In this document: one piece after another, positions 508-55,940 of the stretch
Numbering within the stretch: the first letter of the stretch is position 1
How the letters are laid out: the number at the start of each line of letters is the position of its first letter
NCBI GenBank assembly: GCA_034509925.1
Contig: CM067532.1
Location: 4,916,142 to 4,980,141, forward strand
Length of the DNA: 64,000 nt
DNA from: Hirudinaria manillensis
Taxonomy: Eukaryota > Annelida > Clitellata > Hirudinida > Hirudinidae
Direction of reading: 5' to 3'
Position numbers and translations under genes: made by a program
The notes under the pieces: generated by a model
Told to the model about the DNA's origin: nothing
Seen by the model: only the letters and a program-made list of their open reading frames with translations
Databases searched by the model: none

Positions 508-693
508 AGATTCGTATACGACCAACCATCGAAAGTCGTCCACAAAAGCGTACCCCAAGAAGAGAACATTCTCGATGAAATTATGGACGATTCTGTCAAC
601 CAAAAGGCAAAACAAGCAGCTCTTTGGAAAAGGAAAAGCCTGCAGAAACGCGTTCCAATCCAATGCCTCATAAACATTATCGCCTGTTGGTGA
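508..693 (+). CDS. Allatostatin-C-like prohormone, copy 1 (terminal exon, partial)
   Basis: This is the 3' coding exon of a secreted peptide precursor. An acceptor (tttaatttcag) ends at 507; a phase-0 frame of 61 codons then runs to TGA at 691-693. The C-terminus reads QKR followed by VPIQCLINIIACW. A dibasic KR site would free a 13-residue peptide with Cys-x6-Cys, Asn at the third loop position and one terminal aromatic residue. That is the layout of the allatostatin-C family, whose peptides carry one disulphide loop, end in an aromatic residue and act through somatostatin-type receptors. The remainder of the exon is a charged spacer starting RFVYDQPSK. An AATAAA lies at 786-791. The exon is nearly identical to 2159-2344, differing in the first mature residue (Val here, Asp there). 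The signal-peptide exon should lie left of the window. Function is inferred from the motif only. Confidence 0.7.
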   Translation, partial: RFVYDQPSKVVHKSVPQEENILDEIMDDSVNQKAKQAALWKRKSLQKRVPIQCLINIIACW

Positions 694-785
694 TTAAAAC
701 ATTATAGATTGCTTTCTGCATTCAGAAGTTAACGATTCAGAAATCGATCACATTTCGTGAAACGTCATATTACAGATTTAGTTTG

Positions 786-791
786 AATAAA
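786..791 (+). promoter_or_regulatory. Polyadenylation signal of peptide gene copy 1
   Basis: AATAAA lies 93 bases after the copy 1 stop codon. The second copy has the same hexamer at 2403-2408, in the matching position. Confidence 0.55.
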
Positions 792-1026
792 CGCGATGTT
801 ACTTTGTATCTGTAGCAATTCACTGTAAACTGTTCTTTGATCGGTGGTAACGTGACAATAGCCGCTACGCACTTGAGAACGACCTCTCCGATTTTGTCAC
901 CTCTGATTACTAGTAAAAGATGTATAATTGACACGCAGATGAGATTAATCAAGAGAACTATTATCGATTCACATTTTCTTCGAAGGAGAGGTTGAAATCG
1001 AGAGAGAGTAAGGTCTCGAGGATTTG

Positions 1027-1056
1027 CATAAATAAGGATGGAAGCTCAACTCACTT
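1027..1056 (+). promoter_or_regulatory. Probable core promoter of peptide gene copy 2
   Basis: A TATA-like box (CATAAATAAG, 1027-1036) is followed about 25 bases later by an initiator-like CTCACTT. It stands about 160 bases before the ATG of copy 2 and only about 240 bases after the poly(A) signal of copy 1, so the two genes are closely packed. Confidence 0.45.
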
Positions 1057-1187
1057 GCAGTCCTTAGAAGCGACTACATAAAGAACACGTTCAAGTGTTA
1101 ACTTTGTTTAAACCTTTGAGAGGTTCGATAGAACAATTAGTGAAATTAAAAAAAATTACGATTCGTTTTAAAGGCAACACCAGAAAA

Positions 1188-2344
1188 ATGAACAAATTTT
1201 TTCGCCTCGAATTGCTGGTTGTAGTTATCTTGATCTTAGCCACCCTTACGATGAACATGGCAGTACAGAAAAGAGCTCTCAGGAACATCCACAAAAATCC
1301 CTATAGAGTTGGTACATAATTTTTATTAGTAACAAAAGTTATTAATAGATAATTACTGAGGTAAAAAGAGCTTTCATGTGTACCGTTTCTGTGTGAAATT
1401 TACATCAGAGGTGTGACACACTTTTTTTTTACTCGGGCCATTGCATTAAAATAAGTTATACAGCCGGGTCATTCAGTCGAGATGAAGTACATATTGACAA
1501 AGCTGATTTTTTAAATAATTGCACTTGTTGAATAATAGGACTTTATAACACTGTGTAACATATTTTGAACTCAGGGGAGGTTGGCCCGTAGTTTGGATGC
1601 CCCTGGTGTATACAGTAAAACCTTTAAATTGGGACGCCCAATAGTAGGTAAAATCTGTCCCTAGGGCCCTTTTTTCTAGGAACCGATTTTTACTTTAGTT
1701 TAAGTCTCTTTTGCCAACGAGCAGGCTGCACATAGCGATCCACCGAATGTGATTCAAGTAGGCTTTTCCAACGAGATCTTCGGCACCGGGAGCTTTCCTG
1801 GCTAAAGGCGGACTAGGTTTAACACAGACGCCTGGTAAAAGGGACGGCCTGCCCATAGGGACTCTCTTGGGATGTTGTTTCATCCGATAACGTGACAACT
1901 CATCTAAACTTCTTATGAGCAACTCTTATTCCTTAGAACATCATCACATCTACTAACTCGTCAACCTCTCTTTATTATCTCCTCATTTGCCTGAACTTAT
2001 TATAAATCTTAGCAGTGACGGATGAATTTGTTTTGTAATTTAATTATGCTGCAAAAATTATTTTTAATTACATTTCAAGCAATTGATCGAGACTGGTCGC
2101 TGATTTCTCATAAAGAATACTCAGAAAGTAGAAAATAACGGAATAAATTTAATTTCAGAAATTCTACTACGACCAACCATCGAAAGTCGTCCACAAAAGT
2201 GTTTCCCAAGAAAAGAACATTCTCGATGAAATTATAAACGATTCTGTCAACCAAAAGGCAAAACAAGCAGCTCTTTGGAAGAAGAAACGCCTGCAGAAAC
2301 GTGATCCAATCCAATGTCTCATAAACATTATCGCCTGTTGGTGA
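1188..2344 (+). CDS. Allatostatin-C-like prohormone, copy 2 (complete)
   Basis: Two coding exons: 1188-1307 and 2159-2344, 101 residues. Exon 1 encodes a signal peptide: MNKFFR, then a strongly hydrophobic run to about residue 25, then a short basic segment ending NPYR. Exon 2 starts KFYYDQPSK, continues as a Lys/Asp/Glu-rich spacer and ends with KKKR and QKR before DPIQCLINIIACW and TGA (2342-2344). Cleavage after QKR would release a 13-residue cyclic peptide of allatostatin-C type (Cys-x6-Cys, Asn at the third loop position, terminal aromatic). The precursor plan of signal, spacer and a single C-terminal peptide also fits that family. The donor AGA|GTTGGT is weak, but it is the only phase-0 choice that keeps exon 2 open. 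AATAAA at 2403-2408. The family call rests on motif and architecture; receptor and action are inferred. Confidence 0.72.
1615..1695. mobile_element. Possible pogo/Tigger-like terminal fragment
   Basis: TA followed by CAGTAAAACC at about 1613-1624 resembles the left end of pogo/Tigger transposons at a TA target. A degenerate reverse counterpart may lie near 1680-1695. There is no coding capacity. The assignment rests on one short motif. Confidence 0.25.
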
Positions 2345-6238: not shown

Positions 6239-6763
6239 TCAAGAGCTTCTGTTGAAAGGATTTTCTGAAGACCTCTTCCACTCCTTGTTGACGATGTCAA
6301 GCATTTGACTGTGACGAAGCTTGGGATTCTCCAACTTCAATTGGTTCAACCTTCTGTCCTCGAAGAGTTGGTAGGCCTTTCTTTCCTTCTTCTCAAGATG
6401 GCGAGCACACTTGAGGCTGAAGTTATCGGCGCTTGAGAATACGTCGATTGCTTCATCTACAGTCGAAGCAGTTTCAGTGTCAGCCATGATCCTGTTCAAA
6501 TTTTCTTCAATTGCTCCCACTTTGGTGATGATATTCTTCGGAGAGTTACTTTTCGTCTCCTTCATTTCCAGCTCAAAACGAGTAACTTTGAGAGGATTAT
6601 TTTTAGCAGTCAAATTGGCCATTTCATCGTCTGCCATGTTTTGGCGTTCTTTCTTCTTCTCAAGTTTCTCCATTCTCTTCAACAACTCCTTATCAGCTTT
6701 ATTAAGCTTTACATTACCGCTTATATTAGACTGTAGCTCTAAACGAGCTTCCCTTCGAGACAT
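6239..6763 (-). CDS. CCDC124: CCDC124/Lso2-like ribosome-associated protein
   Basis: Single open frame of 174 residues from ATG at 6761-6763 to the stop at 6239-6241. CCDC124 (yeast Lso2) binds idle ribosomes and helps them recover from dormancy. Features: a Lys/Glu-rich coiled coil (about 20-60, EKLEKKKERQ), then KVTRFELE, then EENLNR and TVDEAIDVFS, and a C-terminal HMG-like block (about 130-172) with FEDRRL, LKLENPKLRHSQ and NKEWKRSSENPFN. These blocks occur in CCDC124 in the same order. The usual Lys-rich N-terminal helix is not encoded here. The frame stays open upstream of the ATG to an acceptor-like aacttgcag ending near 6787, so a 5' coding exon may exist and the true start may not be this ATG. 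Human CCDC124 has 223 residues. An N-terminally shortened paralogue or retrocopy is the alternative. Confidence 0.75.
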   Translation of the reverse strand: MSRREARLELQSNISGNVKLNKADKELLKRMEKLEKKKERQNMADDEMANLTAKNNPLKVTRFELEMKETKSNSPKNIITKVGAIEENLNRIMADTETASTVDEAIDVFSSADNFSLKCARHLEKKERKAYQLFEDRRLNQLKLENPKLRHSQMLDIVNKEWKRSSENPFNRSS

Positions 6764-6803
6764 TTTTATCCGTTCACTCGTCGGTCTGCAAGTTGTTTAG
6801 CAA

Positions 6804-15100: not shown

Positions 15101-18100
15101 GGGAACCGAACATCATGGAATTGGTGTTGTTGAAGTAACCGACGTCGCGTGACGTCAGGGTCCCCGTCTTGGGACTCCCCGCCCTGCTCTGCAGTACGGA
15201 CATCGTTCTCATGCTCGTAGTCCTGCAATGAGTTTGATGCTTTCAATTAATTGATTGATAATTAATTAGTGATTTGTTTGCTTTTAATTGTTCCGATTAG
15301 TTTAATTATTCATTTTGATGGCCAATCTTACAATGCTGCTGAAATTACTTTCTTTGCTTATTCGTTTGAATTGTTAAAGGAATACTTTTAAATAATAAAT
15401 CATATGGAAAGTTAAAAAAAATGCCACCATTCTACATTTTATAAAATAAAGAGTTTGATTCAAACAGTTTCTCAAAGACTTCACCTCTCGAAGGGAGCAG
15501 GTTTGATGCTCTTCTCCCGAGCAAAATCCACCAATTCTTTCTGCGTTCGGCCAGAATATCTGAAATCACGGTCGCAATCAGACAAACTCGAACCTAGATG
15601 CAGGGGTTCATCTTTTCGATGAAAAAGGTCGCGAACCTGAACGAGGATCCGTGGCTGATGACCTTGGTTTTTGTCCGTGGAACTCTTTGGACCGTGTGAC
15701 ACCTGAAGAACGTGTGGTGCTCGATGCATTTCTTCCAGAAGTTCTTGGACCAATTCCGAGAAGGAAAGTAAAACTCCACCACGTCCTTGTATCCCTCCTT
15801 CGAAATGAAAGTTGAATTCAATGGTTCTCAATCAATTCTGATTGCATCCAAAAACTATAAGATTCCATCACTAATTTCATTTTTAAGCAATCTGTTGTGG
15901 GATGCTAAACGCATAATCGGATTTAGCAATAACGTGAAGCTACTTGCGATAAGATATAACAATGGGAACGCTATATTGAAATATGGTAAAATATTGGCAA
16001 TTTCTTTAGTTCTGCATTTGACACATGTTAATTAATTGTACATATGTTGTAATAATTAGTTATAGCTGTAATTGTTACAATATTATTTTAATTTAAATTA
16101 ATTTTATTTGAAGTTTCAGAATCTAATCAGCTTCGTGGCATAAAAACAGAAAATTCTGTTAAGTCATAAAAAAAAAATCCATCCATCCATCCATCCATCC
16201 ATCCATCCATCCATCCATCCATCCATCCATCCATCCATCCATCCATCCATCCATCCATCCATCCATCCATCTCCTTTACCATTCCTTCAGAATGCAATTT
16301 CACAAGGAACTTCTTCCTCTTAAAGCAGAGCTTTCTAATCTTGGCCCACGAGAACGAATTTATTTTCGTGTAATTTTGGAAAACAAGGATCCCGGAGTGA
16401 GAGACTGCCAAGTGAAGGTTCGCTCCGTCGTGGTCCTGAAAATTTAATTGAAATAATGACCCGTCTATCAATAACTGTGCATTGCTAATTGAAAAGCTAA
16501 GTAGAACTTGCAATTACCACAAGGAAGTAATGCACAGACAAACACATCAGTAATGTTATGTCATGTTATGTTGTGTTATGTTATGTTATATCATGTCTGT
16601 CATGTTATCTAATTAGCCAATAAAAGCCAAATTTTAAACCATCAAGTTGCAGCCTCATTCATTCGTTCGTTCGTTCATTCATTCATTCATTCGTTCATTC
16701 ATTGCATGTTGTGCATTTGTATCACAAGCATGTAAACAAACCTATGCTCAATAATAACACTACTATGACTGAAACTTATCATGTCTTGATAAGGATAAAT
16801 AAATAAAATCGTTAAGTAACTATAAATAAGTAAATACAAATAAACCAGTCATGATTTGTAGTCATTTCTACTGCGCAAAAGTTCAACAGAATGAAATTAA
16901 ATTATTAACCTGATTAAACATGAAATTAATGCATTATTTAACAAAATTATTAACAAAGGAGTACCTGAGCAGCATGCAATTGGATGCCATAAAGCTCCAC
17001 CTTCCTTGCTGTGTCCAACAAGTTGAAGTCTGCTTCTGCTGGTGACTGTCCCCTTTTTTTGAAGATTTTTAAATAATTTAATAAATTATTTATTTTAAAT
17101 AATAACAATTAATAAATCGTTCTCAATTACTTAACAAATCTGGGCAAGTTAAATCAAATGATAATAATAATTCCAACTGAGACGTATTATTGCATTCAAA
17201 ATTTCCACATACCACAAAAACCACAAGAACAAGAACAAGGACTTAATTCATCATCTCGGATCAACCATCCTTGACATTCAAAATAAAAAGTAAAAAATAA
17301 TGAAGGACACTCACAAATGTTCTTTGTGATGTTCCATGATTTGATGTTCAATTTCAGGGGTCTGGTTAGGGAGCAGATGTAGCTGACCGATGTACGACTG
17401 GCTGGCATATTCCTCGCAGTAATTCCCCAACTCGGCTAAAATTCAAAATGGCAGACGTTTGATTGATTGACGGTAAGAGACGTTGTTTAAATTATAGTTC
17501 AATAATTAATAATAAATAGGTCTGTCAATTATTTAGGTCAGGCCATCATGTTTTTAATTTAATTTTATTACTAATATTATTATTAATCATTTATATTATA
17601 TATTTATTATGTCTCTATCTGCCATATTAACTGCATGCAATATAAATGCAAGTGAATGCGAATCTCTTAAGTAATTGGCGATAACGATGCCGACGATTCC
17701 CCAAACAATTCTGCTGAAATAGCAGCAATCGGATGAAAAAGGGCGATGAGAACAAAGTGGAGCACGAAGGAAGTCCAAATCATCGCAACAAAATTTATTG
17801 CCTTTTTGCAAATTCGGGCCGAGCAGGACGATGTTTTATTTTCAATAAATTTGAGACGAAGGATGTGTTTCATCCTGGCAAACCTTGCCAAAGAAAAATA
17901 TGGCACGAACTGAACGGAGATCAGAGAGTGTTTGCTTCTACCGATGCCGGTGCAATTTCTACTTTCGATGAGATTTTCAACGTAAACATTGTTGATAGTA
18001 ATGATGACAGGAAATACTTAAACATTATTCAATAAAAGTTGCAAAATAATGGCGTTGAAATGTAACAGGTGACAGATTATTTAAAAAAAACATTGCATAT

Positions 18101-39812: not shown

Positions 39813-42800
39813 ATGTCCATGGCTATGAGAAGAAATTTCTTGAATGCATTTGCAGACTATAGTGGACAGCCATTGTTGCTACCGACGAAGACCGTGAGTT
39901 TCTTAACTATATCCGAATTCTTCCAAAGTCACTTTATTTCTATTGAGAAATTTCTCTCTAGTGAAAAATAAAAGTTTGGTAAAGAAATTTAAATTGGAAA
40001 TTTAAGCTTCTTCCTGATGTCGAGGAACGAATATGGTCAAAAGCCATGGATTTGCTATCAAATCTGGAACATTCATATGTAGCCAACAAAAGAGATTTCA
40101 CTGTTTATACTGGAACAGCAGGTTTGCTTATGTCTTAAATTTTTGTATGCAATGTATATTTTATATGGCATTAAAATTTGTTTTTGAAGGAATGTCCCTG
40201 ATGTACTTTCATTTGTTCAATAAATTGTCAAAACATCCAAATAGAAAGGATTATTTGAATAAGGCTGTGGACTATATTTCAATGTCTTTGAAATATTTAA
40301 ATGCTTCTGATATCACTTTTCTCTGTGGAGGTGCCGGCCCTTTGGCCATAGGTGTCATTGTCTATCATACCAGCGGAGATTCTGTTGAAGCCAAGAAATG
40401 CTTAAATTCGTGAGTAATTGAGTAAACTTTTTAATAATAGATCTGTATTTCTGACTAGAACCTTGTTTATTTAGTCTTTTAGCACTGAACAAACAAGCTG
40501 TTTACAACTCTTCAATACCTGATGAACTTCTTTATGGTAGAGTTGGGTTTCTTTATGCTCTACTCTTTGTGAGACATCATCTTGGTGATGCTATGGTAGA
40601 TGATGGAATTCTGGTGAAAGTAAGCATAAAAAATATAAATAATTTTATTAAAAGTCTTTTCATTTTCTGCAATCATGAATAGTTTTAAAATCCAAATATC
40701 ATATTTTTGTTTATATTCATTAGAATGGTTTACATTTATGTGAAGAAAATATTTTATCTGATTTCAATATTCACTCATACATTGATCCATTACCAGCATG
40801 TATATTGCAAAATATTACTTTAATAACATAATGTTAGAGGATGATCAACAATCTCAAATATTGAAAATATTCATTTCTATCAGTACATTTACATGATGTT
40901 AGGCTCAATTAATGTAGGATGTTTTCTTTGGACCTGTGGCACAATATTTTTTAGAGTTTCTTTGGTAACTTTTTCAAGAGTTCTAGCTAACTGTTAAATG
41001 TACCAATTTCTTCCTTTGGATTATGTTTAGTTTGTTGTCTTATTGCTTCAGAAATTAGTTCTAGAATAGATTGGCATGTGCAGAATAGCTCTTTATTGCA
41101 GCTTTTCTTTAGGCCAAAATTTTAAAGTGGCACAAAGATTCAGGGAAGTTATGCCTTTTTAATTTTGGGATAAACTTTTGGGCTAATGCTTTTGGAACAT
41201 CACAAGAATAACAGTCAGAGTTAACACTTTAAAATTTGCACAAATATTTCATCCCATAAAAAGATCAAAAATAAGACCTCTGATCCATTGAAAAAAATTT
41301 GTTTCAACCACTTTAATATCTATGTAATAATTTTGGAGGATTATTAATAGCTCCACGTGATTTTGATACTATCATGCTTATTTCTGGTTTGCAGTTATTT
41401 TTTAAAATTTTGTTATAGATTATACTAATACTATTAATACTGAGCTTGAAAGCATTCTCCAATAATAAGGTAATCCAATAACAAGATGTTTATAAACATT
41501 TGTTTGTCATTAGATAGCAGATGCAGTGTTTGAAAGTGGACAAAAATATGCTCATAAACACAGAATAGCATCTCCTCTCATGTATGAATGGTATGACACA
41601 ATGTATCTTGGAGCTGCTCATGGAGTTACTGGCATCATTTGGATATTGCTCATGGTCTTCGTTTTTATATCTTGTTGAATAAGTCATTTTTTTATATAAT
41701 TTCATTTGAGATATTTACATATATTAATAATATTTGTTATTCCATAGATTAAAGATTTTAAAACTGTTTCTCCACAACTGGAAAAAATTAGACAGACAAT
41801 TGATTATCTGATGACATTCAAGTTTCCATCTGGAAATTATCCAGCTGCAATTGAACCTCGTGCTGTGGATGAATTAGTCCACTGGTGTCATGGAGCTCCG
41901 GGTTGGATATACATGTTCATAGCTGCTTACAAGGTTTAAATACTTACATTCTTTGGTCTTATTATTCTTTGTTGTTGAAATATACTAGAGTAACCCTTAC
42001 ATGATGAACATTTTTTAAAAAGTATTAAACCCTCTAAAATTGTTAAATTTCATATGAAAAATTATTTGCAAGACAAAATTCTAATGATATTTAAAGGTTG
42101 ATCAAAGGCATCAAAGTTTTTCTAGATGAGAACAAAGTAGTCATTCATTTCTAAGGGACAATTAATCCTGTTAATAACTGTTTTTAGAAACAAATGAAAC
42201 ATGTATTTCATACTTGTGGCCATTTTTTTTCTGGATATTAAAAGGGTTTTTGATAGGATGGTTGCACAATTCTGATCAATAACATGAGTAGCATTTCTTC
42301 TTTGCAAATAATTCACATCCTTTCAGCCAGATTGTACATCAAGAAGCCATCTACTGTAGGATCTGTAGGAGCAACACTTTCCTTAAAATCCTGAAATCTC
42401 TGTCAATTTCTTTGATACATTGTCTTTTTATTGGAAAAGGAGTCCCACTCTGATTCTTTTTATGTTGTGCAGCACTTCTAGAAAGACCTCTATATTATAT
42501 GTTATGATTATTTAATTTTATATTATATATTATATATATATATATATATATTGATAGAAACTCTTGAACGAGCGTTCTGACAGGGATCTTCAGAGGAATG
42601 GCCCCTTCTACGAGTGTTTCGGCCCTGAATCCTGACACTCTCGGGGGCTGGGCCGCATCCGTTGATCAAGCGGATGTCCCTGTCAGATACTTTCTTCCGA
42701 TAACCAGACAACGACTTCCGACAAACAAACAATACTCGCACCGCCATTTTACGAAAAATTCCGCGAGGGCTCCGCCGTCCGAAAAAACCGTCAAAGTAGC

Positions 42801-44745
42801 CATTACGGCACTTCTTATATCACTTTGGTGTGAATGCCGTCCGGGGTGTCTCTTTCCTGGTCTTACACTGGAGTCCCTGTTTTGGTGGAGTGGACAGGGA
42901 CGACTAGCCTCGCCGTGTCTGAGGCTTACCTTCGGTCCTTCGTTGTCCAGATCCAGTGAGAAGCCGATTCTGCGGACTCGGCTATTTTCTGGACGAACTG
43001 CTTGGTTTGCCTGTTTGAAAGGCCTATCTTCCTGAGAAAGGCGTATGTAGACTTGCCTACCAGCCCTCTCGCTCCGACTTCTATTGGTAACACACGGGCG
43101 CTATAACCTTTCCCCTCTAAATCCATCCTCAGCTCTTCATAACGGTCGCTCTTCAGAGCATTGCTGACATCATTCGGTCCTCCCATGGGACCGTCAGCTC
43201 TACGATAATGACGGAATCGGTTGCTGCCGACGCCAGCAACCAGATCAGGCCGCTTGCCGCTCTCTTGTAGCACCTGGTGGTAGTGCCTTTTCCCTGCAGG
43301 TCTGCCGCAACTGTCCAGTCTTTGGCTGTGGACAGCAAGTCCCTCATTTGGGCCATGTTCCTTTTGCGGTGCTGTGTTGAGCCCTCTCTTAAGAAGTACA
43401 TTCTTCTTGGTGCCGCGATTTTCTCGGGCATTCGCCTGGGAGCATGCCGTCTTAGCCGCTTCGACCACGACCTGCAGGACTTGGTTATGTCGCCAAGTGT
43501 AGCGACCGTGAGCAAGGGCGTACGTGCATGATGAAAGCACGTGCCGGAGTGACTGTTCACCTCCGCAGAGCTCGCAGCTGGCGTCTTGAACCATCCCCCA
43601 CTTCTGTAAGTTGGACCCGGAAGGGAGCACGTCGTATAGACCGACCTTATGAGGAATGCCAAGCGGAGGGGAGACTTTTTTCCAAATGTCTTTCCATGTG
43701 ATGGATCTTTGGATGACGTCTTCCCAGGTTGTCCACTGTCCTTGCTGGCTTTGCTGCACTGCCAGCGCAATCCTTTCGGTCTCCATCTCTCGCCTTCTCT
43801 CTTGGATTATCATGGCGGCTTTTGTCTGCACATTCGCTGTGGACCATCTTGGAAAATGGTTCCATCCGACTCCATGGCGGTCTACCTGCACGGGTCCTCT
43901 TTTCTCCTCGAAGGCTAGGATTGCCTCGGATTCCTCAATTTCTTCCTGGGCTCTGAATTTCCTTCCTGAGCGGAGTTGCGGCATGACGTCGCGGACCCTG
44001 CTGTCACTGGAGTTGTTGAGCGACCATTGAGTTCTGATTTTGCTAATTTTATATTCTTCAACGATGGATCTGAGGGGCAGCCTCAACCGTGTGCTTCTGC
44101 TGTACAGGGCGATCGACGATAGCGAAGGCGGCAACCCGAACCATTTCCTCGTACACCGATTTATTTTCCTTTTCCATCTCTTCTACCGACTGCAGGCCTA
44201 TTTCGTAGATGGTCAATGGCCACAGCAGTCTTGGTAGCAGGACGAACTGCAGGAGCCAGACTTTGAATCTGCCCTGTAGCGGCGATTCTGCAATCGCTCT
44301 CAGACCGTCGGTCATCCTACTGACAGTGGCTGCCTCCTGGTTTTTGTCGCGGAGGGACACGTCAAAAAAACTTCCCAAGCTCTTTACTGGCTCTTCTGAG
44401 ACCGTCGGAATGCGTTGTCCTCCGGCGGTGAAGCACACGTCGCTGCGAACTCTCCCTCTTGTGAGAGAAAGACTCCGGGATTTTGCGGGCTTCAGAGCCA
44501 TGCGACACCATTGGAGTAGATCATTGAGCTTGTCAAGGGCTCTTTGGACAATCTGCTGCCTGTTTAGAACGATGGTGGTGTCGTCCATGAAAACCTTTAC
44601 TGAAGGCATAAACACCCCTTTACCCAAACGCATCTCGGGGATCTCAGCTCCTACTGCATTTAGAACGACTTGAATGGCAAGCACAAACAGCGATGGAGAA
44701 ATGGCACATCCCATGGCTATGCCACGTCCATATGGACACTATACA

Positions 44746-46188: not shown

Positions 46189-48337
46189 ATGGCAGTGGAA
46201 TCTCCAAGAGAATTTGAGAATAGCTTTAACGACTATGCGTCGGGGATGTCCGAACATTTCTTAAACAACTCAAGTGCTGCAATTAGGGTGGGCAACGTTT
46301 TTAAATACAGTGAGCGGACCTCTTCAAATTAAGTTCCGTAGCATCTTAAAGGGATAAATAACCATCCTAGGTTCTTTCGAGTTCCTAATGCATGTGATTA
46401 ATGGTTTTCCTATGGAAGACCGACTGACTTACACGCCTTAGCGCCACTTGATTTATTGAAGATTGATTTTCATAATTTTTCTTATGATTTCTAGCTTCAA
46501 AGTGACTTAGAGAGCAAAATTAAAGATAAGATAAGACTTCTTCTTGGTAAACTAGAGGATGAATATTCTATTGACTGGAAAGATTCCTCAGTTTACACTG
46601 GTACTGCAGGTAAATTAAAGAACCATCTTCTCTCAGCATATGTAGATGACATAATTTGTTTCTTTTTCAGGAGTAGCTCTTATGTACTATCACCTATATA
46701 CAGACTTTGATGATAGTCAAAACAAAGCTTTCTACTTATTCAAAGCAGTGGAACTCATTAAGAAAACATTGAAAAATCTCAGCCATAAATCAATCACATT
46801 TTTGTGTGGAGATGCTGGACCCTTGGCAGTTGGGGCTGTGATTTTGAAAGCTGATGGTCAGGAGGATGAATCTAATAAATGTTTAGAAAAGTGAGTGTTA
46901 AAGTGGCAATACAAAAAATATAACAATCTAAATCTATTGAAAATGAAGTTTAAATAGGATGCAGGTATATATTACCCAATCAAAATACAGAATGCATAGT
47001 TGTGTAATTGGTGCTATTGCTCAGAGTCAACTTGTGTCAATTCTGTATTTTTGAATGACAAAATGATATATGTACAATAGACTGAAAGATCTCTTCAAAA
47101 AGATGAAGAATGATTATAATATTGGAGATGAATTGCTCTATGGTAGGGCAGGGCTACTCTATGCTTTCCTGTTTGTTAGGCAACATCTCGGTTCAAATGT
47201 TATTGGTGATGACATCATTGGAGAGGTTTTTCAAACTTTTCTTAATTTCTGTGTGTTGAGCATCATGGATTGTGTTCATTTTCAGGTTGCAAAAAGAATA
47301 ATTGAGAATGGTCGCAAACAAAATGGGGGAGAGACTGCAGAATCACCATTAATGTATTCATGGCACAGCAAGAAATATCTTGGTGCAGCTCATGGAGTGA
47401 TGGGCATCCTTTACATGCTAATGACAGTTAGTCTCTTTTATGACAAGACATTATCTCAAAGCAATTGCTTCATGTTTTTGAATACTTGTCTCATTACAGC
47501 TCAAAGATGACCACTATGTTTCCAGTCACCTACAAGATTTGTTAAAGCCTACTGTAGATTTTATGATGACATTGAAGTATCCATCTGGGAACTACCCATC
47601 GTCAATGAGATCAAAGTCAGACGAATTGGTGCAATGGTGTCACGGGGCTCCAGGCTGGATTCACGCCTTCCTTGCCGCATACCAAGTGCCATATAGAACT
47701 TTATTGACCAGGTGCCAATCAGTCATTCTGACCTGAATTTCTCATTTTTGCTAGACATTTGGGGATGAAAGCTATTTGTCTGCTGCAAAAGGATGTGCAA
47801 AAGTAACCTGGAAAAGAGGGTTGCTGAAGAAAGGATATGGAATCTGCCATGGAGCTGCTGGAAATGCCTATGGATTTCTGGCCATTTTCCGAGCGACTAA
47901 ACAATCTAAATACCTATATTATGCAGTGAAGGTTAGTAATGGATGTACTTTCATGACTCAAAACTAAACAAGTAGAGAGGTCTTAATTCTGAGTTATGGT
48001 GTGAATGACAATCAGATTCGACCCTCATTGAAACGTTTTTCAGTATGCCGAATGGTGTCTCGATTATGGCAAGCATGGTTGCAGGATTGCTGATCGACCC
48101 TATTCCCTATTTGAAGGTAATTATCAAATCATATTTATGAAGCAAATCTAATTATGACATTGCTCAAATTATTAGCAATTTCCCACATTATGTCACTGTT
48201 GTTTAAGTAATTTCATTTCCCTTTACTTATCTGATAAGTTATAACGATTCTATATTTAAGGCATGGCTGGGACTATCTATTTCCTGGTGGACATCCTAAA
48301 GCCCAATCATGCCAAGTTCCCTGCTTATGAGTTGTAA
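46189..48337 (+). CDS. LANCL: LanC-like protein, copy B
   Basis: Complete gene, 9 coding exons, 410 residues. Exons: 46189-46287, 46495-46609, 46671-46890, 47081-47225, 47286-47426, 47500-47685, 47755-47931, 48044-48116, 48261-48337. Same family, fold and predicted glutathione-transfer role as copy A. Seen: NSFNDYASGM, TFLCGDAGPLAVG, DELLYGRAGLLYAFLFV, GAAHGVMGI, YPSGNYP, QWCHGAPGWIHAF, KKGYGICHGAAGNAY, SLFEGMAGTIYF, FPAYEL. Zinc ligands Cys, Cys and His are kept. Exon 1 is six codons longer than in copy A; all other exons match copy A in length and phase, so this is a tandem duplicate. The protein sequences have diverged widely, so the duplication is not recent. Introns are short (60-210 bases). 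Its stop lies 97 bases from that of the convergent CutC gene. Confidence 0.93.
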
Positions 48338-48433: not shown

Positions 48434-48439
48434 TTTATT
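48434..48439 (-). promoter_or_regulatory. Poly(A) signal overlapping the CutC stop
   Basis: On the coding strand AATAAA spans the TAA stop (48435-48437). If used, the CutC 3' UTR is only about 10-30 bases, leaving room between it and the convergent LanC-like gene. Confidence 0.5.
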
Positions 48440-49227
48440 TGTAAAAGTTGGCATGAATAGAGACCATGGATTGTACAAGTTCTTTGCTGCAAACCTTTCT
48501 CACATAATCACTAGTTGAACCAAATGTGACATCAGGATTGATGAAAGACATTTTAGATATTTTTTCAGCATTGGCAGATCCATGAAACTCTTTTGCTCCA
48601 GAAACTTGCAAAATTTCTCTGAGGTTGTGTTTTGTGATTCCACCACCAGGCATTATCACAATCTGATTGCCATACTTAGTAATCATCTCCTTCAGAATAA
48701 AACAACCTGCAAAATTCCTGCTTGAGGAAAAAGTAGAAGTAAGATAACTAAGTAAGGTGATTCTCACCGTCAAGGGCTGAAGCCTTCCCTCCAGAGGATA
48801 GGACTCTGTTAAAACCAATGGAAATTAAGGTTGGGATGTTGTCGGCCGGACAGTTACTCGCATCTATGGCCCTGTGAAACGTGATCGGCAAAGGCCTACA
48901 AATGGCTGCAATTTCTTCGCTGCTTTTGACGTCTATGGATCCGTCCTCCAAAAGGGCTCCGAACACGAATCCATTTGCACCACGTTCTTTCAGTAGCAGA
49001 GCATCAGTCTTAATTATTTCCAGTTCAAATTTAGAATATATGAAATCACCACTCCTAGGCCTTAACATAACGAAGACTGGTATCTCGACGCGAGATTTAA
49101 CGGCATCAAACAAGCCCAAGCTAGGGGTCAGTCCTCCACAAGATAAAGCGGAACAAAGCTCCAGTCTCATTGCGCCACCATTAGATGCCTCCAAGGCTGA
49201 TTCCAATGAATCTACGCAAACTTCCAT
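48435..49227 (-). CDS. CUTC: CutC family protein
   Basis: Complete gene, 2 coding exons (49227-48768 and 48706-48435), 243 residues. CutC is a TIM-barrel protein linked to copper tolerance in bacteria and binding Cu(I) in human; its exact activity is unsettled. Seen: MEVCVDSLESA at the N-terminus, GGAMRLELCSALSCGGLTPS, FVMLRPRSGDF, GFVFGALLEDG, ITFHRAIDA, GFNRVLSSGGKASALDG across the intron, IVIMPGGGITKHNL and EFHGSA. These are the family blocks in order. The exon 2 acceptor (aattttgcag, ending at 48707) was chosen because upstream AGs give a stop; it restores DGCFILKEM. Convergent with LanC-like copy B. Confidence 0.94.
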
Positions 49228-49670
49228 GTAGCAGTTGCTGTTCGAACCGATGACTTTTCAATGTTAGGGAAGCGAGTAAAGTATGCGGGAGTGAATATAC
49301 GTTTTCTTTTCGTTTAGGCAAATTGAAACATGCAGCGGTAAACTAATCATTCGTGTCGGGAAGCTAGATGTTTACAGTGAAGCAAATAGAGTTCGTCCAA
49401 GGTAGCCTAGACATAAAAGTGGAATTATGAACCAGCGAAAAGAATTATTTCAATGTTGATTATAGTTCCATTGGAATATTGGTAGAGCAAACAATGATGT
49501 AGTCGAGTTCGACCTCACTGGCGCATGAATCCATGTGGACGAGTAGTGGGGCCGCTTCAATTTTCAAAGACCCAACAGGGGATGGCCTTTTTTTATAAAT
49601 TGATAGATGCAGGGGAAGTGAATTTTTAAATACGATTGATGGATTTCTCAACCAAAATTAATCAAGGGAT
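49228..49670. other. CutC upstream region
   Basis: About 440 bases before the hAT-like element. It should contain the CutC promoter; no clear motif was recognised. Confidence 0.45.
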
Positions 49671-51773: not shown

Positions 51774-52931
51774 TCAAATGATATCAGCTCTGCAAGTCGG
51801 ACCCTTGTGCGGTCTGAACTTAGTGCCGAGGTAGGACGACGATTTGTGTCTGAATTTCTTGTCGATGTAGTGTCTCAGTGAGTTCCTGAGCACCTTGTTC
51901 TTGATGCCGTACACAAAAGCATTGACGCTCGGAGATGCCGACAGAAGGAACCCCGATAAGGAGCAAATCGTCGAGGAAAGATGCTGCTGTCCCACTAAGT
52001 GTACGGTGGCGTATGGAATGTAGAAGAGAACAAAAGCTCCCAGAAATTTACAAATCGTTTGAGAAGCTCTCTTGTTTCTCGACGTAACGTGCTGGGTCGA
52101 CTTCTGCGCCTGTTCCTTGGTCAGCGGAACTCCGACGCTCAGAGTGATGACTCTCACCATGGCTGCCATGACGACGATGCGCTTGTTTTGTTGCCTGGCA
52201 ACCGCAAAAATGCGCACGTAGCAGAAGACGAGGACAGCCAGAGGGAGATAAAACGTGGCAAGAAGCCACAAGCAGACGTAAATCCTTTTGAATTCATTGC
52301 TTGTGCTGCCTGTCTCGAAAAATCCGGTCGTTCGATCGTAGATGTATCCGTTGGAAAAGACAATGGGAAAGAGGTCTGTGACGAGAGAGAAGAGCCAGAG
52401 ACTGGACAAGCAGAGACACGTGTGCAGGGACCTGACAGCCGTGGGATGGTGGAGAGGGAGAACGATGGCTTTATACTTTTCCCAGCTCAGTAGGACTATG
52501 GTCCAAATGGAGAGTTGAACGCAGAGATTGCAAGCCACGGCCAGCATGTTGCAGGTTGCCTGCGACCAGATCCACTCATCTCCTAGCAGGAGGAGTACAG
52601 CGCTGACCGGCAGAATAATCAAGCACCAGACAACTCCCGACAGTCCCAAATGGCAGCTGAGACCGTAAACGACTTTCGAGCGCAGACGTCGACTGAGCAA
52701 AACCGCGAAAACAATAAAAGCGTTGAAGATGAGACCGAGGAAGGCCAAGAAACATAATATAATTGCGTGAAATATCGCCAAAATCTGGAATGCCTCCAAG
52801 GAATTTTCATTTACATCGTTGCTATTAAACCATAATGATCCGTTGATGTTTGAAGTGTTATCGTTTGGCACAAGGAAAAGCTCTGCAAGTATTTTATTTG
52901 TTAATTTTAAAATGTTAAAATGATTTTGCAT
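51774..52931 (-). CDS. Orphan class-A (rhodopsin-like) GPCR
   Basis: Single-exon gene of 385 residues, ATG at 52929-52931. The N-terminus is extracellular (about 1-50) with N-glycosylation sequons (NTS, NGS). Seven hydrophobic segments: about 53-78 (with Asn70 at the 1.50 position), 88-112, 127-150, 168-190, 216-240 (Pro230), 293-315 and 322-342. Cys127 is the usual TM3 disulphide Cys. The DRY box is replaced by EKY (151-153), and the TM7 NPxxY by NAFVY (337-341), so Pro is lost. The TM2 Asp is absent (LSCHLGLSG). There is no TM3 Asp of amine receptors, so the ligand cannot be guessed. Intracellular loop 3 is long and basic; the C-tail contains KKFRHKSSS. Intronless among intron-rich neighbours, as often seen in expanded GPCR families. 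Local GC content is higher than the flanks. Confidence 0.85.
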   Translation of the reverse strand: MQNHFNILKLTNKILAELFLVPNDNTSNINGSLWFNSNDVNENSLEAFQILAIFHAIILCFLAFLGLIFNAFIVFAVLLSRRLRSKVVYGLSCHLGLSGVVWCLIILPVSAVLLLLGDEWIWSQATCNMLAVACNLCVQLSIWTIVLLSWEKYKAIVLPLHHPTAVRSLHTCLCLSSLWLFSLVTDLFPIVFSNGYIYDRTTGFFETGSTSNEFKRIYVCLWLLATFYLPLAVLVFCYVRIFAVARQQNKRIVVMAAMVRVITLSVGVPLTKEQAQKSTQHVTSRNKRASQTICKFLGAFVLFYIPYATVHLVGQQHLSSTICSLSGFLLSASPSVNAFVYGIKNKVLRNSLRHYIDKKFRHKSSSYLGTKFRPHKGPTCRADII

Positions 52932-55427
52932 GTTTAGAAAAAAAAATCTTCGTTTATTTTTATTTTGTTAAACCGAAATTTTTTGCCATAAATTCTAATT
53001 TGTAGCGAAGTAAAATTGAAACTTAATGCTTTCATCGGACCTCTCGTTAGTCTTAGAAAGCTTTTGTTGCGAACTTGTCTTCCAGCAGTAGCGAACGATT
53101 ATTTACCAACTGAAATTGATTGAAGGCAATCAATTTCAATCGCGTCTCAAGATAAATCAAGATCACTCAAGAAAACATCGTCCAGAATCAATCAAGACCG
53201 CAATCAATCAATCACTTGGAATGCATCAACCCGGTTCAATCGCCAAACTAGTATCATGCAAAGGCCGCTTTAAATTTATTTAAAGAAATAAACGTAAAAA
53301 GTAAAGGTTGACTTTGAAATAATTTCTTAATCATTCCTGAGGGAGAATTGAAACGAAACTCGTGCTCTTAAAAGACACAAAATCCAAAGATTTTCAAATA
53401 TTTATTGTGGACTTTGCATAGGTAAAAGCATGCAAACATTTGGCCACGTCTTCAAGTAATTTCTAATCAAATACCAAGCAGTATTTAATGATCTGCAACG
53501 ATGTTTCTCAAATATTTTAATAAAATATTCAAAGTTTTAATTTAATTATTAAATATTTCGATTTAATCTCTCATTAAGTTCTTATTTGAAGTGAAATTAG
53601 CAGGGTTTTTTATCTTGATGTTTTCAAGTTTAAAAGTGGAATCCATTTAGGATTCTGTGGATTTTCTGAGGAATCCTGAGGATTTTGCGCTGAAATTTTG
53701 TTGCAACTTTTGTGGCTCCATTTTGTGGAGTTCGTTCGAAATGGGAAGATTTCATGACAATAAAATTACTGACGTCATTTGGTGACGAAATGAGGATGAC
53801 GATGATGATAATGTTGATGTTGATCGTAGTCTTGCTGCGATGATGATGACGACGACGACGAGGAAGGAGAGAATTGTGGTTATGATGATGATGATGATGT
53901 AAGTTGTGGAAACATGGTAGGCGTCATATGTTCGATGGAAATGCAATTTCCTTCTTCACTGCCTGACGTGAAACAAGCGAATGAAACACTTGTCAATGAA
54001 TCCGCGCCTGTTTTAAGCAATTCTCTTCCTAACTAATTATTCACTTTATTAGACATTTAATAATAATAATATAATAATAAAATATAAAATAATAATAATA
54101 ACGAATATTATTATTATTAAATTAATATTTATTAAATTAATATTCATTGAAATAACATTTATTACCTCATGAGACAATAATATGGAAACTGCAACACGAC
54201 ATGTTCAATGAGCTGGAAGGTTTCAATTTCGAAATTGAATCAAACATAAATTAATAAATAAACAAATGTGTATTAATGTTATTATTATTATTATTAATAT
54301 TATTATTATTATTATTATTGTTATTGTTGTTGTTATTATTACGACTTCATTACAGCGACCACAACAATGCAATATAATAGTGCAGTTCCCTTTAAGACTG
54401 AACATCATATGAGTGATAATATTTAATAAGAAATATGGTCGTTTACGTGTGTCCGTGTGTCCGTGTGTGCGCGTTTATGAAAGTCACTCATGCATCAGTG
54501 GCGTGACGTGACTTTTTTGATCAATGATGACAACCTTTGATGATGGTAATGATGATTAATGGTGATCATTCTTTATGATAACATAATCATGATAATCATC
54601 TTTCTCCTAGTGATGATGATGATGATGATGTTTTAATAGTTGGATGTGTCGGTGACGTCGTTGGAGATGAGACTCATGATGATGACGTTGGCGATGGTGA
54701 TGATGACGATGATGAGGTTTTTGTTGACAGTGATGACGCCGCGGATGATAAAGTTGTTGATGGTGCCGCTGCTGATGATTATCATCATCATCATCATCAT
54801 CATCAAGGTGGTGATGATTGTGATGATGGCAATAAAAAAGAGAATGATGATGATGATGATTTTGATGATAATGAAATTTGTGATACGATTTTATGAAGTG
54901 TTTCACACAAAGAAGTGCAAAGCGAAATCAGAAACGTGGTTCGAAATGAAATGTTAATCTAATTGAAGCTTTTAAATAAATAAATAAGAAAAAATAAATA
55001 AACGATGATGCCACAATCCTAAACTAAGCGAACACAAAAGAGCGGATTAAAGGGACAGTCCCCCTAAAGTCACTTATCCTTTTGGAAGCTTATTTCTCTT
55101 CAAATCCTTCCTTCTGGCTTTCTCTTCATTCACCTCCTCATTCAACCAATCACAGCCCTCACACACAATCACAATCTTTTTGGTCTTTTTGTAGAAATTA
55201 AAACAAAATATTCTTCCGAAATTTCTGAATGCAATTTAATCAATGGTCTTAATTGCTTTGGACCGTTTTGCCTCCTTTCAACATCGGACCGGTGAAATGC
55301 AAGTCATTTCCTGGCGTCTGAATCGTGGTGCAAAATCTATTCTGCAGGAATAAGTGGCTTAGAGCCTTTGTTTTGTGGTTCTTGGGAAACATTAGGAAAG
55401 AAACTTTCGGCTCTTGAAATGCAACTC
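52932..55427. other. Intergenic with trinucleotide-type repeats
   Basis: No supported gene. GAT/GAC-rich low complexity at about 53790-53900 and 54600-54870, (TTA)n at about 54275-54320. Long frames there code only His or Asp/Met runs. An exon-like minus-strand island is noted at 55074-55184. Confidence 0.6.
55074..55184 (-). other. Exon-like terminal island, unassigned
   Basis: On the minus strand an acceptor-like tttctacaaaaag is followed by 36 codons and a TAA (55074-55076), with coding-like composition: IVIVCEGCDWLNEEVNEEK followed by a basic tail ending KLPKG. No partner exon was found and the family is not recognised. It could be chance. Confidence 0.2.
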
Positions 55428-55430
55428 GTT

Positions 55431-55940
55431 ACGTGGAATGCACCTCTTTACGTGGAATGCACCACGTTACATGGAATGCACCGCTTTACATGGCATGCAC
55501 CGCTTTACGTGGAATGCACCGCTTTACATGGAATGCACCGCTTTACATGGAATGCACCACGTTACGTGAAATGCACCACGTTACATGGAATGCACCGCAA
55601 TACATGGAACAGACCCCTTGACGTGGAATGCACCACGTTACATGGAATGCACCGCTTTACATGGCATGCACCGCTTTACGTGGAATGCACCACGTTACAT
55701 GGAATGCACCGCTTTACATGGAATGCACCGCTTTACATGGCATGCACCGCTTTACGTGGAATGCACCACGTTACATGGAATGCACCGCGCTACATGGAAT
55801 GGACCCCTTGACGTGGCATGCACCGCTTTACATGGCATGCACCACGTTACATGGAATGCACCACGTTACATGGAATGCACCGCAATACATGGAATGCACC
55901 GCAATACATGGAATGGACCCCTTGACGTGGCATGCACCAC
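55431..55940. repeat. 19-bp minisatellite, about 27 copies
   Basis: Consensus acatggaatgcaccgcttt, with variants ending cacgtt, gcaat or ccccttg. The ccccttg variant recurs near 55619, 55809 and 55923, indicating a higher-order pattern (about 10 and 6 units apart). Because 19 is not a multiple of three and no phase creates a stop, all three + frames stay open over several hundred bases, giving a 19-residue-period translation. No signal, start context or splice site suggests real coding. Confidence 0.9.

Follow-up and report, generated by a model that had tools for sequence, protein, structure and literature searches.

What do two short, similarly built open reading frames at the start of a 64,000-nucleotide stretch of the Hirudinaria manillensis genome (C7:4916142-4980141, + strand; hereafter the window) encode? 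An earlier sequence-only reading had taken them for tandem genes of allatostatin-C/somatostatin-like neuropeptides. Having followed up this proposal, we consider it very probable that the pair are tandem paralogous allatostatin-C (AstC) prohormones, of the somatostatin type, of this leech. The family assignment is upheld by four lines of evidence: the match of the predicted peptides to mollusc AstC, the phase-0 intron, the spacing of the cysteines (CX6C) and a gene for a receptor of the somatostatin receptor (SSTR) class.

The locus is a tandem pair of two-exon genes. Copy 2 is complete within the window, its gene model joining 1188-1307 to 2159-2344. Exon 1 (1188-1307, +) carries the signal segment and the start of the propeptide, ends in phase 0 and is followed by GTTGGT; a presumed intron of 851 bases occupies 1308-2158 (+); and exon 2 (2159-2344, +) comprises 61 codons and TGA, its product reading KFYYDQPSK...LQKRDPIQCLINIIACW. 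Exon 2 of copy 1 (508-693, +), which likewise has 61 codons and TGA, reads directly as RFVYDQPSK...LQKRVPIQCLINIIACW. With the signal exon of copy 2 as query against the 10 kb preceding the window, blastn and tblastn located an intact signal exon of copy 1 about 3 kb upstream of the window, at C7:4913158-4913280 (L003:7017-7139), with identities of 282/341 in the nucleotide alignment and 29/41 in the protein alignment. The resulting precursors have 102 (copy 1) and 101 (copy 2) residues and share 80% identity, while the 231-base blocks at 470-700 and 2121-2351 are 92% identical. With the full copy 2 precursor as query and an E limit of 10, a protein search of the whole genome (148,429,096 bases in 23 contigs) found the four exons of the pair and one His-rich match on C8 (E 0.49) that lacks the peptide, and hence no further paralogue carrying it.

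Both precursors run from a signal segment through a spacer to Lys-Arg, (V/D)PIQCLINIIACW and a stop codon. The predicted Lys-Arg cleavage sites, read directly at 646-651 and 2297-2302 (+), stand immediately before the 13-residue predicted mature peptides 1, VPIQCLINIIACW (652-690, +), and 2, DPIQCLINIIACW (2303-2341, +), exactly as had been claimed. The claimed Cys-x6-Cys loop with Asn at its third position and an aromatic end before the stop is equally present in both copies, in which CLINIIAC places six residues between two cysteines and Trp is followed by TGA. In peptide 1, the cysteines presumably close a ring and the C-terminal Trp is free; as no Gly follows this Trp, no amidation is expected. 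The position of Lys-Arg before x-Pro had been regarded as unusual, and we know of no barrier to cleavage at such a site. A signal peptide had been assigned to copy 2 on a split exon, which agrees with the model of exon 1 joined in phase 0 and encoding a hydrophobic segment. Such a segment follows the start Met in both copies, with peak 15-residue hydropathy values of 2.71 and 2.75, and the signal peptides are predicted from hydropathy alone.

Splicing of both gene models is predicted from sequence signals. TTTCAG directly precedes exon 2 in both copies, and the predicted donors (AGA/GTTGGT and AAA/GTTGGT, the slash marking the junction) leave the intron in phase 0 in each case. The usual donor consensus is GTRAGT, from which both leech donors are far removed. 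However, an in-frame TAA lies no more than 12 bases past the donor in both copies, which forces the exon to end close to this point. A TATA-like element, CATAAATAAGG, for which a promoter role may be supposed, lies 5' of copy 2 (1027-1037, +), and its letters recur identically in the 5' flank of copy 1. Candidate polyadenylation signals, AATAAA, begin 93 bases past the stop in copy 1 (786-791, +) and 59 bases past it in copy 2 (2403-2408, +). By blastn, only the first 46 and the last ~140 bases of the copy 2 intron align between the copies. The same intron contains a dispersed repeat of ~93 bases (1611-1703), probably a short mobile element, which has 76-89% identity to at least 40 other places spread over 12 of the 13 large contigs.

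Could one of the two genes be a decaying, untranscribed duplicate? The introns are strongly unequal (3368 bases in copy 1 and 851 in copy 2), and the rates of change between the copies would allow relaxed selection. Across 101 codons, dN is 0.105 and dS 0.236 by the NG86 method, and other methods give dN of 0.114-0.115 and dS of 0.181-0.193, that is dS of about 0.2 overall. The corresponding dN/dS, from 0.44 (NG86) to 0.64 (YN00) and thus near 0.5, is also compatible with mild constraint. Against decay, each copy retains an open frame, a signal exon, a splice acceptor, a TATA-like element and AATAAA. We therefore regard the loss of one copy as unlikely, and it would in any case be compatible with an AstC prohormone encoded by the other. 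Within exon 2, amino-acid changes affect 1 of the 13 mature codons and 8 of the 48 others, a difference that is not significant (Fisher P 0.67); the copies diverged too recently for their comparison alone to reveal constraint on the mature peptide.

The motif shared by the two precursors is rare by chance. The window has two instances of a dibasic site followed, after 0 to 14 residues, by C-x2-N-x3-C, an aromatic residue and a stop. In 200 first-order Markov simulations of the window, this arrangement averaged 0.02 per 64 kb, or 0.21 per 64 kb without the requirement for Asn. A stricter form, KR-x(0-8)-C-x2-N-x-[IV]-[AS]-C-aromatic-stop, was absent from all 200 simulations. Since both copies stem from one duplication, the pair counts as a single event in this comparison.

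The closest likeness of the peptides is to mollusc AstC, with which they share a single CX6C peptide, a loop whose third residue is Asn, whose fourth and fifth are branched-chain and whose sixth is Ala, and a C-terminal aromatic residue. The oyster peptide SHIRCLVNVIACY is likewise 13 residues long and has Ile as its third residue (PMC4200219); it derives from a gene prediction without confirmation by mass spectrometry (PMC4200219). Aligned with it, VPIQCLINIIACW is identical at 7 of 13 positions and positive at 11, with a score of 45, and the form beginning with D scores 47. None of 200,000 shuffles of either leech peptide reached its oyster-match score, and the two peptides rank first and second among 188,344 stop-free 13-mers drawn from the window and other genome loci (excluding seven loci that overlap the tandem), with a score of 31 in third place. 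The C-terminal 13 residues of Aplysia AstC give 4 identities and 8 positives, a result equalled by 0 of 200,000 shuffles; here the leech peptides again rank first and second, narrowly (34 and 32 against 31). Of the 120 orders in which the residues of the loop LINIIA can be arranged, moreover, the actual one scores best against MFNVVA, the loop of Aplysia. A loop without Pro-Ile-Ser had been thought unusual, a claim that does not hold since molluscs share this feature (LVNVIA in oyster, MFNVVA in Aplysia). The C-terminal Trp, on the other hand, is indeed absent from the few printed, non-annelid AstC peptides compared: the leech peptides end in Trp, whereas those of oyster (SHIRCLVNVIACY) and Aplysia (SHYSSMCMFNVVACY) end in Tyr (PMC8786951). 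Another difference from mollusc AstC is the x-Pro start of the leech peptides.

These comparisons bear directly on the idea that the products are unrelated short, cyclic, hydrophobic peptides, for instance antimicrobial ones, whose likeness to AstC arose by convergence. The peptides are indeed short and hydrophobic with one presumed disulphide, and neither precursor has a meaningful match in Pfam. Such an origin is nevertheless hardly credible given the shuffling and ranking results against the oyster peptide, the optimal order of the loop against that of Aplysia, and the shared phase-0 intron. Genes for somatostatin and AstC share an intron in phase 0 in their N-terminal part, where urotensin genes have one in phase 1 (PMC7536072), and the leech gene models carry theirs near the N-terminus in phase 0. 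This also led us to set aside a precursor of the Urotensin II type. AstC is further characterized by two cysteines six residues apart in one such peptide per gene (PMC8786951), and each leech gene encodes a single C-terminal CX6C peptide after Lys-Arg, followed by the stop.

At E up to 10, neither precursor matches a somatostatin-type Pfam family, and the copy 2 precursor and both exons 2 match no Pfam family at all. The sole Pfam match of the full copy 1 precursor, TMEM62_C (E 0.089), is taken as chance. Short, divergent prohormones often fall below the detection of profile models, and recognition by Pfam is not counted here as defining for membership in AstC. Exon 2 of copy 2 has no relative in the PDB, where the best match is trigger factor (E 0.6), and of 35 stretches in IMG/VR that matched a pattern, none was confirmed as a relative.

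With arthropod AstC, AstCC and AstCCC, the leech peptides have in common the CX6C spacing, a loop with Asn as its third and Ile as its fifth residue, and an aromatic end, the arthropod loop being YFNPIS; they differ by the lack of Pro-Ile-Ser. Against YFNPIS, 3 of the 120 orders of LINIIA score at least as well as the actual one. The PISCF-type AstC of arthropods, for which a C-terminal PISCF is the criterion (PMC8514136), was rejected, as the leech peptides end in IIACW and so do not belong to this subtype. The leech copies are near-identical, and their duplication is probably separate from that of the arthropod genes and younger. Vertebrate somatostatin and cortistatin resemble the leech system in their disulphide ring (presumed in the leech), phase-0 intron and SSTR-class receptor. 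They differ from it by ten residues between the cysteines instead of six (PMC8786951) and by their FWK core (PMC7536072).

Identification of a receptor gene adds a further argument. The whole genome was searched with the transmembrane part of human SSTR2 (279 residues), which yielded, with 139 of 227 candidates scored, at least 37 stretches whose E did not exceed 1e-8. On contig C4, three separate exons on the minus strand (9797795-9798040, 9796888-9797304 and 9782810-9783031) encode an SSTR-class G protein-coupled receptor (GPCR) and together span residues 1 to 271 of the 279 of the query, at 35 to 44% identity. When exons 2 and 3 are joined (TM3-TM7) and compared with the PDB, SSTR2 comes first (E 2.4e-41), followed by SSTR1 (1.3e-36), with SSTR4 (1.6e-33) level with the mu-opioid receptor (1.8e-33), among the best 60 of 109 matches. 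Judging from its genome, H. manillensis thus has at least one somatostatin-class receptor, a candidate partner of the leech AstC peptide. A gene on C12 (L021/L035) places opioid receptors first and SSTR1 behind among the best 60 of 414 PDB matches, and L021 is considered a second candidate receptor only. On C1, a fragment (L033) shows 44% identity to SSTR2 along a stretch of 68 residues.

Two other receptors were rejected as partners. The best match of the SSTR2 query, on C7 (L019), has galanin receptors first in the PDB and is therefore galanin/allatostatin-A-like. The GPCR encoded within the window itself (51774-52967, minus) has no somatostatin receptor among the best 60 of its 223 PDB matches.

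From these elements, the following course of events can be proposed for the leech peptides. The signal peptide would direct the precursor into the secretory pathway, where a prohormone convertase would cut after Lys-Arg and free the last 13 residues, and a disulphide between the two cysteines would close the 13-mer into a ring. The (V/D)PIQCLINIIACW peptides would then be released from neurons or endocrine cells and probably act as an inhibitory neuropeptide or hormone on a somatostatin-class GPCR, for which the receptor on C4 is a candidate. A peptide with an x-Pro start is a substrate of DPP-IV-type peptidases; we may guess that trimming of x-Pro by such an enzyme would reduce both products to one peptide, IQCLINIIACW. 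For the ring itself there is a precedent in Aplysia, where AstC with its ring closed has an EC50 of 7.8 nM at its receptor and higher doses are required when the ring is open (PMC8786951).

Descent from the somatostatin/AstC family does not by itself fix the present role of the two genes, and one or both copies might now encode a secreted exocrine peptide of saliva or skin. H. manillensis is a blood feeder (PMC6977106) and, with dS at the value given above, the duplication is fairly young, two circumstances that would suit such a change of use. Yet the two 13-mers differ at a single residue, the 5' flanks are 83% alike over 214 bases, which suggests shared expression of the copies, and the leech has an SSTR-class receptor of its own, so that we judge an exocrine role very improbable. 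A more specific version would in our opinion be a long shot: one copy would serve in the saliva and act on somatostatin receptors of the host, thereby lessening pain or inflammation, and the other would keep its neuropeptide role. Bites of this leech do cause little pain, and another molecule has been proposed as the reason (PMC10342134), which speaks against the need for a salivary somatostatin mimic.

AstC as such is already known from leeches. Table 1 of PMC8786951 lists it for the annelids Hirudo medicinalis, Helobdella robusta, Capitella teleta and Platynereis, of which Hirudo and Helobdella are leeches; the likeness to the present pair lies in phylum and family name, by listing and not by letters. 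The available part of that source mentions no tandem pair in annelids and reports for Aplysia only one AstC gene, 'likely' single (PMC8786951), as opposed to the two tandem genes of the leech. In the open-licence literature, we found no published leech peptide with LINIIACW, IIACW or near variants, nor any work tying nlp-64 to somatostatin and allatostatin. The tandem duplication and the C-terminal Trp may be new details within what is a sound, mostly ordinary gene identification, one that leaves the picture of the AstC family unchanged. Its contribution consists in gene models with coordinates for the AstC system of a medicinal leech, comprising two precursors and candidate receptors, and in a tandem duplication of a peptide gene in a leech, similar to those described from arthropods. 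The nervous system of leeches is well mapped, which makes two near-identical peptides and their candidate receptor directly testable.

Other features of the window and of the genome deserve mention. The rhodopsin-class GPCR of the window (51774-52967, minus), perhaps an orphan receptor, has ~390 amino acids in one open frame, matches Pfam 7tm_1 at E 1.7e-28 with a weaker similarity to Srx, and has mainly aminergic receptors, along with bombesin receptor 3, among the best 60 of its 223 PDB matches. The galanin/allatostatin-A-type receptor on C7 (L019, C7:6607953-6608843) lies ~1.7 Mb away from the peptide genes, in a single open frame of 466 codons. In the opioid/somatostatin-class gene on C12 (L021/L035, C12:6114163-6115893, minus), HRKVTRLV precedes TM6, and long extra loop stretches lie inside one open frame. 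The window also contains, on the minus strand, a Ccdc124 homologue (6239-6796; C-terminal domain, one open frame), a FERM-adjacent domain just at the Pfam cut-off (15481-15831) and a CutC homologue (48435-49257) spread over two open frames that presumably represent separate exons. Two separate LanC-like (PF05147) open frames on the plus strand (40018-40413 and 47067-47510), belonging to one split gene or to two, flank a reverse-transcriptase element. This element (42926-44738, minus) is a probable non-LTR retroelement remnant with a reverse transcriptase domain in two overlapping open frames and a zf-RVT match below the Pfam cut-off, and its site is the most GC-rich 2-kb step of the window. 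A minisatellite of 27 copies of 19 bases (55418-55938) gives rise to three overlapping long open frames made of the same repeated words, which are no evidence of genes. Contig C23 (15,581 bases) reads under code 5 as a mitochondrial genome whose genes cox1, cox2, cox3, nad6 and cob follow one another in the annelid order, and the genome has no exact copy of the SL1 22-mer; a nematode origin was accordingly rejected. Finally, telomere-like CCCTAA repeats are found at the contig end at C4:1-180 (start of L008).
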